Part shown: positions 30,958-34,474 of the stretch, piece by piece | Layout: every line of letters begins with the position of its first letter | Position numbering within the stretch: the stretch's first letter is position 1 | NCBI GenBank assembly: GCA_003166915.1 | Contig: PMUK01000228.1 | Coordinates: 1,212 to 45,729, forward strand | Source of the DNA: Candidatus Cybelea palsarum | GTDB taxonomy: Bacteria > Vulcanimicrobiota > Vulcanimicrobiia > Vulcanimicrobiales > Vulcanimicrobiaceae | Length of the DNA stretch: 44,518 nucleotides | Reading direction: 5' to 3' | Translations under genes and position numbers: made by a program | Notes under the pieces: model-generated | Database searches by the model: none | What the model saw: only the letters and a program-made list of their open reading frames with translations | Told to the model about the DNA's origin: nothing

Positions 30958-32142
30958 TCAGCCGTGCCCGGGAACCGAGTCGAGCGCGCTAGCCAGATCG
31001 GCTACGAGGTCCTCCACCTCTTCGATGCCCACCGAGAGGCGCAGCAGATCGTCGGTGATATCGAGCTGCGCGCGCTGCTGGGGGGTGAGCGACCCGTGCG
31101 TCATTCTGGCCGGGCTGCAGATTAGCGATTCGACTCCCCCCAACGAGACTGCGAGCGCGAAGATGGAGGTCGAAGTTGCGATCGCACGGGCGCGCTCGGG
31201 GCCGCCCTTCGGACGGAACGAGACGATGCCGCCAAATCCGCTCATTTGACGCTTTGCGAGTTCGTGCTGCGGATGCGCGGCAAGACCCGGATAGTGGACC
31301 TCCGCGACGTCACCGCGTCCGGCGAGAAACTCCGCAATGACCTGCGCGTTTCTCGAGTGTGCGCGCATGCGCAAGCCGAGTGTCTTCGCTCCGCGCATCG
31401 TGAGATAAGCATCCCACGGGCCGGGCACCGCGCCCACGCAGTTCTGGTGATAGGCGACTTGCTCGGCGATCTCGCGATCGTTCGTGATGACCGCACCGCC
31501 GATAACGTCGCTGTGTCCACCGATGTATTTCGTCGTCGAATGAACGACCATATCGGCCCCCAACGCAAGCGGCTGCTGCAGAAAGGGCGACGCAAACGTA
31601 TTGTCGGCCACGATTAGGGTACCTGCCGGCCGCAGTCGCGCGAGGGCCTCGAGATCGCAGAGCCGCAAGAGCGGATTGCTCGGCGTCTCGAGCCAGAGCA
31701 GCCGCGTATTCGGCCTCGCCGCCGCCCAGGTTTCGCAAGCATTGCTCGTATCGACGAACGTCACGTCGATGCCGTAGCGCGAGAGAACCGTCGTAAAGAG
31801 GCGATGCGTGCCGCCGTAGATGTCGCGCGTTGCGATGATGTGGTCGCCACAGGAGAGCAGCGACGTCGCGCCCGCGACCGCGGCCATGCCTGAAGCAAAG
31901 GCCGAGGCGAACGTGCCGCCCTCGAGCGCGGCGAGCTGACGCTCCATCGCGCAACGCGTCGGATTTACGGTTCGCGAATAGTCGAAGCCCTTCGTCACGC
32001 CGATTTCCGGCAGCGTAAACGTCGCGGTTTGATAGACGGGAACGATCGTCGCTCCCGTTGCGGGACACGCCTCCTGCCCGCTCCAAACCGCTCGGGTCGA
32101 GAAGCCGAGCGGCGAAGGGTGGTTCGATCCTCCATTGCGCAT
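30958..32142 (-). CDS. cystathionine gamma-synthase / O-acetylhomoserine sulfhydrylase family enzyme
   Basis: A 394-residue PLP enzyme of the Cys/Met metabolism family. Lys205 in HSTTKYIGGH holds PLP; Asp180 in IVADNTFASP contacts the pyridine nitrogen; ETPSNPLLRL is the substrate-side block. I start it at the ATG at 32142, whose A is shared with the TGA of metX (TGATG), although the frame is open 63 codons further. It would combine O-acetylhomoserine from MetX with cysteine (MetB-like) or sulfide (MetZ/MetY-like). Sequence alone does not separate these. It is third in the hom-metX operon under the Met leader. Confidence 0.88.
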   Translation of the reverse strand: MRNGGSNHPSPLGFSTRAVWSGQEACPATGATIVPVYQTATFTLPEIGVTKGFDYSRTVNPTRCAMERQLAALEGGTFASAFASGMAAVAGATSLLSCGDHIIATRDIYGGTHRLFTTVLSRYGIDVTFVDTSNACETWAAARPNTRLLWLETPSNPLLRLCDLEALARLRPAGTLIVADNTFASPFLQQPLALGADMVVHSTTKYIGGHSDVIGGAVITNDREIAEQVAYHQNCVGAVPGPWDAYLTMRGAKTLGLRMRAHSRNAQVIAEFLAGRGDVAEVHYPGLAAHPQHELAKRQMSGFGGIVSFRPKGGPERARAIATSTSIFALAVSLGGVESLICSPARMTHGSLTPQQRAQLDITDDLLRLSVGIEEVEDLVADLASALDSVPGHG

Positions 32143-33125
32143 CAGTTGCTCCGGACAGCCGACGTAGCGGGCGTTCTGGTAAGTGGTTCTAAGATTGCTC
32201 GCAACGCATTGGGCTCGGCTAAAAATGCGTCGTGACCGTGATGCGATTGGAACTCGAGATACTGCGCGTCGAAGCCGTAGAGCGCAAATCGCTGCGCCGC
32301 TGCCCGTACGTCCTGCGGGCGAAACAGCCAATCCGACGTGATCCCAACGAACGTCAGCTTGGGTTTTCTCGCGCCGCTTCCATTTAGGAGCAACTCTCCG
32401 GCATCGCGCACGTCGAAGGAGTCCATAGCGTGAGTGAGCGTGGCGTAGCTGGCGGCGTCCATGCGAGCTTCGAAGAGATCCGCCTGACGTTCCAGGTAGC
32501 CCTCAACGTCAAAACACGCTTTCCCACCGCGATCGTCGCGGCGGCCGTGGCGCTCGTTGAAGAGCTCTTCGCTCTTGTACGAGAGCATCGCAAGCTTGCG
32601 CGCGAGACGCAGACCGCGCACCTGGTCGAGCGCGAGCGCTTCTCGCTGCAGCGCGTTGAGCGCGATACCCATCGCGCTGTGATGATCGTGCGCGCCGACC
32701 AACACCGCTTTGCCGATCCGTTGCGGTGCATCGAGCGCCCACTGCAACGCGCGCATACCGCCCAGCGATCCGCCGATAGCGAGCTCGACCCGCTCGAACC
32801 CCAGCTCGCGCAGGGCGAGCATTTCGGCCCGCACGACATCGCGAACCGTGATCCGCTGCGAGGTTCTCGTCGAGCCATAACAACTTCCCAGCGCGTTGAT
32901 GCCGAGCACGCACCACTCGCGCGGGTCAAAAAGCGCGCCCTCACCAACGATGCCCGGCCACCAGTCGGCCGCGCGGCTCGAACCGGTCAGCGCGTGTTCT
33001 ACCAGAACGACGTTTGAGCCGTCAGCCGCGGGGGTGCCGTAAAGAGTGACGCGTTGCTCGACGGCTGGAAGCGTTTGCCCGCAATCGAGCCGCAGTGCGC
33101 CAATAGCCACCGTCTCCTCGCGCAT
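32142..33125 (-). CDS. metX: homoserine O-acetyltransferase
   Basis: A 327-residue alpha/beta-hydrolase acyltransferase. The nucleophile is Ser120 in GGSLGGMRAL, the acid Asp265 in SDWLFRP, and the base His298 in HHGHDAFL. The oxyanion-side block VEHALTGSSRAADWW and the INALGSCYGST stretch are typical. It activates homoserine with acetyl-CoA (succinyl-CoA in a minority of enzymes) for methionine synthesis. Its ATG shares one base with the hom stop (TGATG at 33123-33127) and its own stop likewise overlaps the next gene, so three genes are translated in series. It is slightly shorter than most MetX proteins (340-380). Confidence 0.92.
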   Translation of the reverse strand: MREETVAIGALRLDCGQTLPAVEQRVTLYGTPAADGSNVVLVEHALTGSSRAADWWPGIVGEGALFDPREWCVLGINALGSCYGSTRTSQRITVRDVVRAEMLALRELGFERVELAIGGSLGGMRALQWALDAPQRIGKAVLVGAHDHHSAMGIALNALQREALALDQVRGLRLARKLAMLSYKSEELFNERHGRRDDRGGKACFDVEGYLERQADLFEARMDAASYATLTHAMDSFDVRDAGELLLNGSGARKPKLTFVGITSDWLFRPQDVRAAAQRFALYGFDAQYLEFQSHHGHDAFLAEPNALRAILEPLTRTPATSAVRSN

Positions 33126-34255
33126 CAGGCGTTCACCAGCGCCTGCATCGAAACGTTCGTCAACGCATCGTCCCAGATCGCATAGTTGGGAAGTTCAACG
33201 GTTCGGGAAAGCCGGTCGAAGAACGGCTCGGTGCGGCTCGCCGTTTCGAGCGAGTTCGAGCGGCCACGCAGATCGAAGCCGCGGCCCTGGCCGAGCGCAT
33301 GCAAGACGGTGACCACGTCACCGAGCACGGCCGAAGCAGTCGCGGCGCCGCCCGCACCAATGCCGCGCAATATGAGCCGGCCGGCGTCGCGCGCGACAAC
33401 TTGCACGACGTTCTCCGCATCCGCGGTGCGCGCGAACTCGTGGCTCTCCGCGACAAGAACCGGCGCTACCTCGGCCAAAACGCCGTCGGGCGTGCGGAGG
33501 ACCGCGGCAACGTGACGGATTCTAAATCCCAGCATGCGGGCGCGGGCCACGTCGCGCTGCGTTACCGAAGAAATTCCGGTTCGCGCAATGCGCGGAGAGA
33601 TCACCGCAAGACCAAAAGCCAGTTGCGCGATGACGGCAATCTTGTGCGCCGCATCGACTCCCTCGACGTCGTTGCCCGGATCGGCTTCGGCATAACCAAG
33701 CCGTTGCGCTCGAGCCAGCGACTCGTCGAAACCGGCGCCTTCTTCCATGGCTGAGAGGATCGCCGTGCACGTCCCGTTGACGACACCGGCAACCGAGAGA
33801 ATCTCGTCTCCCGCCAGCGCCTCGCCAAGCGTTCGTACGATCGGAATTGCACCGGCTACGGCGCCTTCGAAACGCAACGCCGCGCGGCGCGATGCCGCCA
33901 GGGCCTGCAGTCGCGGGCCCTGCTCGCCGAGCAAATCCTTATTGGCCGTGACGACGTGGCGGCCGCGCTCGAGCGCGCGCTCGACCAGCTCGGCGGCATC
34001 GGTCGTTCCGCCGATAACCTCGATAACGAGATCGACGTGCGGATCGTCGACGACGGAGCGAGCATCGCGCGTGAAGAGACGGCGTTCGAGCGCGCTCGAA
34101 CGCCTCTTTAATGAATCTTGAATCGCGATCGCGCGAAGCTCGTATCGAACGCCGCTACGGCGTTCGATGATATCGCGCTCGCGTTGCAGACGATCGGCTA
34201 CGTTTGAGCCGACCGTTCCGCATCCGAGCAGTCCGACCCCGACGGTCGTTTTCAT
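33125..34255 (-). CDS. hom: homoserine dehydrogenase lacking an ACT domain
   Basis: A 376-residue NAD(P)-dependent enzyme that reduces aspartate semialdehyde to homoserine. The Rossmann motif is GLLGCGTVGS at the N-terminus. The catalytic domain has GVVNGTCTAIL and GYAEADPGNDVEGVDAAHK, holding the substrate-binding Glu/Asp and the Lys expected to donate a proton. Most bacterial enzymes are 430-440 residues and end in an ACT domain that binds threonine. This one stops about 60 residues earlier and shows no ACT pattern, so threonine feedback is unlikely. AGGAGG at 34265-34270 is its ribosome binding site. First gene of the methionine operon. Confidence 0.92.
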   Translation of the reverse strand: MKTTVGVGLLGCGTVGSNVADRLQRERDIIERRSGVRYELRAIAIQDSLKRRSSALERRLFTRDARSVVDDPHVDLVIEVIGGTTDAAELVERALERGRHVVTANKDLLGEQGPRLQALAASRRAALRFEGAVAGAIPIVRTLGEALAGDEILSVAGVVNGTCTAILSAMEEGAGFDESLARAQRLGYAEADPGNDVEGVDAAHKIAVIAQLAFGLAVISPRIARTGISSVTQRDVARARMLGFRIRHVAAVLRTPDGVLAEVAPVLVAESHEFARTADAENVVQVVARDAGRLILRGIGAGGAATASAVLGDVVTVLHALGQGRGFDLRGRSNSLETASRTEPFFDRLSRTVELPNYAIWDDALTNVSMQALVNA

Positions 34256-34295
34256 ATTTCCAGGCCTCCTGTTGCGATGGGAAAGCGAGGATAAA

Positions 34296-34326
34296 CGCGC
34301 CCCCCGCCGTGGTGGCGAGGGGCGCG
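34296..34326 (-). terminator. attenuator-like hairpin in the hom leader
   Basis: On the minus strand CGCGCCCCTCGCC (34326-34314) pairs with GGCGGGGGGCGCG (34308-34296) over 13 positions with one T-G, leaving an ACCAC loop. TTTATCC follows, a short T-run. The 5' arm plus loop (34312-34321) can instead pair with codons 20-22 of the Met leader ORF (34373-34381: five pairs, one bulged base, four pairs). The two folds exclude each other, as in amino-acid attenuators. Confidence 0.65.
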
Positions 34327-34363
34327 AGAAGCATTTTTGGTTTCCGGACTTAACTTGCGAGCT

Positions 34364-34438
34364 TCACGACGACCCTGCCACATGCATACGCATGCCGCAC
34401 ATCGAGAACATCATTATGCCACTCGCAGGTTGAGACAT
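34364..34438 (-). CDS. methionine-rich leader peptide of the hom-metX operon
   Basis: A 24-codon ORF, ATG at 34438-34436 and TGA at 34366-34364, too short for normal gene calling. Met codons lie at positions 1, 9, 10, 13, 16 and 18; Cys is codon 14. Six Met in 24 is far above the usual 2-3 percent. It stands between a strong-looking promoter and a hairpin before hom, whose operon makes methionine. The ATG falls at or within about 3 nt of the predicted transcription start, so it would be translated as a leaderless message. I infer that ribosome stalling at the Met codons under methionine shortage controls termination downstream. No homologue of the peptide is known to me. Confidence 0.7.
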   Translation of the reverse strand: MSQPASGIMMFSMCGMRMHVAGSS

Positions 34439-34445
34439 GGTCCGA

Positions 34446-34474
34446 AGATTAGCATCTGCGCGGGCTGCTGTCAA
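34446..34474 (-). promoter_or_regulatory. promoter of the methionine operon
   Basis: On the minus strand the -35 is TTGACA (34474-34469, full consensus), the spacer 17 bp, and the -10 TAATCT (34451-34446), preceded by TGC as an extended -10. The start site is expected at 34436-34441, i.e. at the ATG of the Met-rich leader ORF. The divergent gene at 34516 begins 42 bp beyond the -35. Confidence 0.75.

Follow-up and report, generated by a model that had tools for sequence, protein, structure and literature searches.

A probable methionine-sensing attenuator with a leaderless, Met-rich leader peptide before a hom-metX operon of Candidatus Eremiobacterota

Introduction

Could a leader peptide that must itself start with methionine report a shortage of methionine? 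Methionine operons are known to be controlled by SAM riboswitches, T-boxes and repressors, and leader switches that rely on ribosome stalling are textbook matter for other amino acids. To our knowledge, a leader-peptide switch for methionine has hardly been reported, the one known proposal being a weak one. The case of methionine is special in that starvation should lower the initiator Met-tRNA as well, and how such a leader can report the shortage is a testable question. It is raised by a locus in a 44,518-nucleotide stretch of DNA (the window) from a member of Candidatus Eremiobacterota, a little-known phylum from soil, in which a short Met-rich open reading frame (ORF) lies ahead of hom. 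The leader is very likely a ribosome-mediated transcription attenuator that senses methionine, and probably also cysteine, through charging of the elongator tRNA.

The leader and operon in the window

The features of the locus are listed in Table 1. A TGC upstream of the hexamer TAATCT makes an extended -10 element (TGC-TAATCT), although the hexamer itself matches TATAAT at merely three of six positions. Owing to this weak -10, a generic sigma-70 promoter scan reports no promoter at 34446-34474, and the support for the promoter is its conservation among relatives rather than the scan. Only 7 nt (TCGGACC) separate the -10 from the leader ATG, a distance into which a Shine-Dalgarno site would not fit. 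The transcript is thus inferred to start at the ATG or one to two bases from it, in the absence of a mapped start site.

The leader ORF has Met at codons 1, 9, 10, 13, 16 and 18 and Cys at codon 14, and the internal ones, Met 9, 10, 13, 16 and 18 together with Cys 14, are its control codons. A preliminary description of this locus had given the same promoter elements, the same 24-codon ORF with the same Met positions, a long hairpin and, behind it, hom, metX and a cystathionine synthase gene. Its coordinates and Met positions are right, its hairpin is the intrinsic terminator, and the genes do follow in that order; the one qualification concerns the poor match of the -10 to consensus. The metB-like ORF was called from a TTG, and its real start probably lies further in.

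Table 1. Features of the leader and operon (positions in the window)
Feature	Position	Strand	Remarks
Promoter	34446..34474	minus	-35 TTGACA 34474-34469, 17-nt spacer, -10 TAATCT 34451-34446; from sequence and conservation
Leader-peptide ORF, MSQPASGIMMFSMCGMRMHVAGSS	34364..34438	minus	24 codons; ATG 34438, TGA 34366-34364
Region 2, putative antiterminator 5' half, AGGGTCGTCGTGAAGC	34361..34376	minus	Spans the leader stop codon; from fold z and co-variation
Region 3, GCTTCTCGCGCCCCTCGCC	34314..34332	minus	Common to the predicted antiterminator (with region 2) and the terminator (with region 4)
Intrinsic terminator	34296..34326	minus	13 bp, 12 of them G-C; tail TTTATCC; 37 nt past the leader stop codon
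Region 4, terminator 3' arm, GGCGGGGGGCGCG	34296..34308	minus	TTTATCC next
Conserved block, CCTCGCTTTCCCATCGCAACAGGAGGCC	34261..34288	minus	Includes the hom Shine-Dalgarno site; kept across genera
hom, homoserine dehydrogenase	33125..34255	minus	NCBIfam NF004976
metX, homoserine O-acetyltransferase-like	32142..33125	minus	Best NCBIfam match NF001209, under its cut-off
metB-like cystathionine gamma-synthase	30958..32331	minus	Top NCBIfam match NF005871 at 508 bits, its cut-off being 513

Conservation of the leader among relatives

We searched for hom in 99 family genomes and in 149 from the phylum, and for metX in the family, and read the DNA upstream. In most of the related genomes with this operon, the corresponding position holds a short Met-rich ORF, in which the Met codons are kept and the rest varies; the leader proposed earlier thereby withstands the comparison with relatives that its description had named as a possible refutation. 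In total, 51 Met-type (Met/Cys-rich) leaders were recovered from about 17 genera of the family (g1, g2, g5, g6, g9, g11, g12, g15, g18, g19, g20, g24, g31, g34, g35, g37) and a sister family, ahead of hom-metX-metB, hom-metY-metX or metY-metX operons. The sister family, f3 of the same class, contributes two genomes, with the leaders MNLTSMSAMMCMCETCMVSHAEARALSK (L121) and MKRRRTCCTMMTGTRREFRSRCMREE (L122); the former has a Shine-Dalgarno-like site and is therefore not leaderless.

Near relatives (L080-L083) have hom genes 89-95% identical to that of the window. Between many genera, the DNA 5' of the promoter is unrelated, and in several it holds an apparent thrB end. Nearly all leader-bearing relatives nevertheless have TTGAC-N17/18-TANNNT within these unrelated flanks. 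Kept across genera are TTGAC, the spacer, the -10, the 7-nt gap, the ATG and the Met (and Cys) codons of the middle third, whereas the rest of the peptide mostly varies. Within the family, almost every Met-type leader has this distance of 7 nt from -10 to ATG, which predicts a leaderless transcript, with the start site unmapped.

Analysis of 19 representative Met leaders revealed that 75 of their 81 internal ATGs lie in frame, against five and one in the other frames, and that base shuffles of the ORFs would give only 6.7 +/- 2.5 in-frame Met. A chance origin of the Met-rich ORF is ruled out by this in-frame bias and these shuffles. As the representatives are related, the frame and codon counts are not fully independent events; judged from their sequences, the leaders of different genera are nonetheless too divergent for descent alone to preserve the frame.

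Cysteine is enriched as well, which leaves room for the same attenuator having a shortage of cysteine, or of sulfur amino acids in general, as its main signal and the Met codons in a secondary role. The 19 leaders contain 42 Cys codons where shuffles predict 18.9 (2.2-fold), frequently as CC beside Met; those of genus g11 have Cys-Cys and just two internal Met, and leaders with CCC stand ahead of cysH, sulfite reductase and a peroxiredoxin-like gene. However, the enrichment of Met is far stronger (75 against 6.7), the window leader has five internal Met and one Cys, as does L019, and the multi-Cys, Met-poor leaders precede cysteine-pathway genes rather than met operons, g11 excepted. We regard cysteine as the main signal as unlikely, though it remains the most serious of the alternatives.

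A short ORF of conserved composition ahead of an operon could also act through its peptide: by binding Met or SAM within the exit tunnel, the peptide would stall the ribosome as TnaC does. Beyond Met and Cys, however, the peptides are little alike across genera (compare MSQPASGIMMFSMCGMRMHVAGSS with MNRRSLAMMMCCCSPRGTV and MFRLTMRMFGFMCCSQKRAARAVFA), and their Met codons have been repositioned by frame-preserving changes. Such an arrest is hardly credible, because only Met and Cys are common to the peptides.

The leader is not universal. In genera g8, g10, g25, g29, g30, g33 and g38 and in family f2, hom has a short leader-free UTR, and inspection by eye of sampled phylum members outside the class found no such leader before hom. 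Two genomes, G014 (L008) and G077 (L024), lack both ORF and terminator, and their promoter abuts the ribosome-binding block CTCGCTTTCCCATC. Joint loss of ORF and terminator is to be expected of a switch whose parts depend on one another, and the two operons, having lost it, should be constitutive.

In genome G002 (L097), a Met leader with terminator is followed directly by an apparent hom 3' end and then metY-metX. This genome, 74% complete, has no hom match and seems to have lost hom yet kept the switch for metY-metX.

Terminator and predicted antiterminator

A classical attenuator has a short ORF in which codons for the end product of the operon are over-represented and an intrinsic terminator separating this ORF from the first gene, both of which are present. 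Among the relatives, the terminator stem mostly lies 19-38 nt past the leader stop codon, and a strong G-C stem with a U-run occurs in almost every leader. A classical attenuator further has a competing antiterminator, which a ribosome that has reached the stop codon masks; this too appears to be satisfied, on prediction and co-variation without probing.

For the antiterminator, the ribosome was assumed to be stalled at the first control codon, and the free segment up to the terminator 5' arm was folded. Pairing of region 2 with the terminator 5' arm beats shuffles of the upstream half in 46 of 47 distinct leaders (mean z -3.4), and this upstream half spans or flanks the leader stop codon across them. 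Moreover, region 2 co-varies with region 3, with a mean of -28.8 kcal/mol for cognate pairs against -21.4 for cross-genus pairs (Wilcoxon P = 1.7e-6). In L046 (g12) the antiterminator does not outdo shuffles, and three leaders, L016, L015 and L102, give weak values in either the shuffle fold or the co-variation.

In Met leaders, region 3 is predicted to pair with upstream RNA at a median of 0.77 with a stalled ribosome against 0.16 with a ribosome at the stop codon; the means are 0.76 and 0.19, and 0.54 without a ribosome. The corresponding predictions for the window are 0.62, 0.14 and 0.18. Its antiterminator (z -1.90) is among the weaker of the leaders tested, and its U-tract (TTTATCC) is short. 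According to these predictions, upstream RNA would hide region 2 of the window when no ribosome is present and the terminator would prevail, as in classical super-attenuation.

The whole leader of the window folds better than its shuffles (z -2.96), and the RNA is conserved around the ORF end, as might be expected of a structured RNA that binds a metabolite, for example a SAM riboswitch, with incidental ATGs. But it is the reading frame and the complementarity that are conserved, without a common core, and the ATGs are in frame. No Rfam family was found by cmscan of the window at the gathering cut-off, a permissive cmscan of the 461-bp region gave chance-level matches only, and cmscan of 20 related loci with all Rfam families was negative save for one tRNA elsewhere in L052. 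Models of SAM-I (RF00162) and the T-box (RF00230) match none of the 99 related genomes, although both do match in control genomes. On these negative searches, which were genome-wide for SAM-I and the T-box alone, the riboswitch was rejected, and we give it next to no weight.

Another possibility is that the position of the ribosome gates access to the hom Shine-Dalgarno site, that is, translational control as described for mycobacterial Cys uORFs. The block CCTCGCTTTCCCATC-CA-CAGGAGG (34288-34261) is kept across genera, including the loci L008 and L024 that lack leader and terminator; with its CCTC..GAGG, it might hide this site. Against this stand the G-C terminator and U-run of almost every leader, as well as the co-variation of region 2 with the terminator arm and not with the Shine-Dalgarno site. 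Translational control is accordingly given a very low probability, and transcription attenuation remains the preferred reading. The exact block has one match in the window's genome. Similar blocks in other genera also precede cysH (L178), an NMT1-like gene (L163) and a sulfite reductase operon (L142).

Proposed mechanism

We propose that the transcript starts at or near the ATG, so that a 70S ribosome would load on the bare 5' end. With ample Met-tRNA (and Cys-tRNA), the ribosome would reach the stop codon and cover region 2, upon which regions 3 and 4 would pair, the terminator would form and RNA polymerase would halt ahead of hom. When Met-tRNA is scarce, the ribosome would stall on codons 9-18 and leave region 2 exposed; its pairing with region 3 would prevent the terminator and allow hom-metX-metB to be transcribed. 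The start site, the stalling, the methionine response and termination in vivo are inferred, there being no data on expression, start site or methionine response for these uncultured organisms.

The preliminary description had likewise inferred sensing of Met-tRNA charging by stalling on a leaderless ORF. Comparative evidence now strongly supports this (ORF, Met codons, 7-nt gap and, going beyond that description, the predicted antiterminator and a swap of codons between operon types), but a methionine response has not been shown, and the enrichment of Cys codons means that Met and Cys may together form the signal. The ORF, its control codons, the promoter spacing and the link between codons and operon come from sequence and comparison, and the two competing, co-varying hairpins are predicted.

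Comparison with known systems

The thrL, ilvL, hisL and trpL attenuators of Proteobacteria similarly have a leader peptide rich in control codons, a region 2 near the stop codon, and mutually exclusive antiterminator and terminator. They differ from the present leaders in signal, which here is methionine (with cysteine), in the leaderless start without a Shine-Dalgarno site, and in phylum.

Leaderless poly-Cys uORFs of mycobacteria are reportedly the subject of work by Canestrari in 2020. They have been described by Shell (2015, PMC4633059), and resemble the present leaders as leaderless ORFs rich in the pathway's sulfur amino acid; their signal is cysteine, however. Conserved terminators are absent from the mycobacterial cys operons (PMC1262725), whose control has been described as translation attenuation (PMC13236596), whereas here an intrinsic terminator and a putative antiterminator are found. 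Similar in architecture is ilvB1 of Mycobacterium tuberculosis (PMC13236596), with a translated uORF containing control codons, competing hairpins and a stop-codon ribosome that masks the antiterminator, but with branched-chain amino acids as the signal. For the cysS candidate uORFC-8-2 (PMC8632094), ribosome-mediated attenuation at Cys codons, together with an intrinsic terminator, has likewise been predicted; it belongs to a cysteinyl-tRNA synthetase of Rhodobacterales, and its proposed signal is cysteine rather than methionine.

Methionine operons of Actinobacteria were found by Seliverstov et al. to have no conserved upstream RNA structures (PMC1262725). The preliminary description knew of no methionine example, which needs amending: one earlier proposal exists, the metL leader peptide before metNIQ of Streptomyces lividans (PMC8079986), and it is the sole Met leader peptide that we found in the open literature, subscription papers not being covered. 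The metL ORF, too, is short and leaderless, contains Met and Cys codons and stands ahead of a set of methionine genes. It precedes a transporter, though, has two internal Met only and no typical Rho-independent terminator that its authors could see, and it is a single-species proposal for which we saw no comparative support. The mechanism proposed here is classical ribosome-mediated attenuation; what is new, within open papers and without experiment, is methionine as main signal together with leaderless ORFs.

Control codons and operon context

The control codons mostly follow the type of operon. Ahead of hom-metX-metB and hom-metY-metX operons, the leader is Met/Cys-rich; where no met genes stand behind hom (g37, g26, g15 and g3), it is Thr/Ile-rich (MPALCVIMTTTITTTTTLGEGRSGSTSA, MSRWMIRSITIITGSEESRSGW; a further example is MAAISMITTTTITTTLGEGRSGLTSA), and in g37 and g15 metY-metX carries a separate Met/Cys leader of the MNGRCMAIMAMCASREGRCRSSSP type. 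In g20, metY-metX has a leader and hom has none. One Thr/Ile-type leader, L058 of g15, also has several Met. A search for thr genes behind Thr/Ile-type hom found none, so the threonine link of these genes is only inferred from the pathway. In codon content, g37 and g26 have Thr/Ile leaders of the thrL type.

The Thr/Ile-rich leaders before stand-alone hom (L048-L059, L061) have a terminator and a predicted antiterminator, and are thrL-like and leaderless or nearly so. The -35 of those in g37 is weaker (TTGCGC).

Patterns not anchored to any gene (promoter, 7-nt gap, ATG, then ATGATG or ATGTGY) were searched in 149 genomes and gave about 45 sites, nearly all ahead of genes of Met or Cys metabolism; a reversed control pattern had no match in the same genomes. 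Two full-length genes in f14 aside, the examined sites stand before hom-met operons and metY-metX, further PLP enzymes of the Cys/Met type, cysH together with sulfite reductase, a binding protein resembling NMT1, and one gene whose first residues we read as those of a peroxiredoxin.

Altogether, we consider it likely that leaderless attenuators run sulfur and aspartate-family genes throughout this family of Eremiobacterota with interchangeable control codons (Met/Cys, Cys or Thr/Ile), that Met serves as a tRNA-charging signal although it is also the initiating residue, and that orthologous hom switched between Met and Thr/Ile signals with its operon context. Orthologous hom genes with a Met-type leader, a Thr/Ile-type leader or none, together with two natural deletions of the whole switch, amount to a natural experiment.

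The promoter-plus-ATG pattern found no further amino-acid leader in the window's own genome. Two pattern sites, L153 and L154 (G136 and G137, f14), were discarded as leaders: both are genes of full length, and the second half of the pattern matches an Asp-rich stretch within them. With an ATG 7 nt from the promoter and the antitoxin-like start MRTTL(D/T)IDDDV, they appear to be leaderless genes.

Leaderless leaders rich in Cys, such as MLHRRKGRGMCCCVSSFCKGAEVIAT, also have terminators and stand ahead of cysH, sulfite reductase and a peroxiredoxin-like gene at L178, L179, L142 and L192; they are probable cysteine attenuators in the same family.
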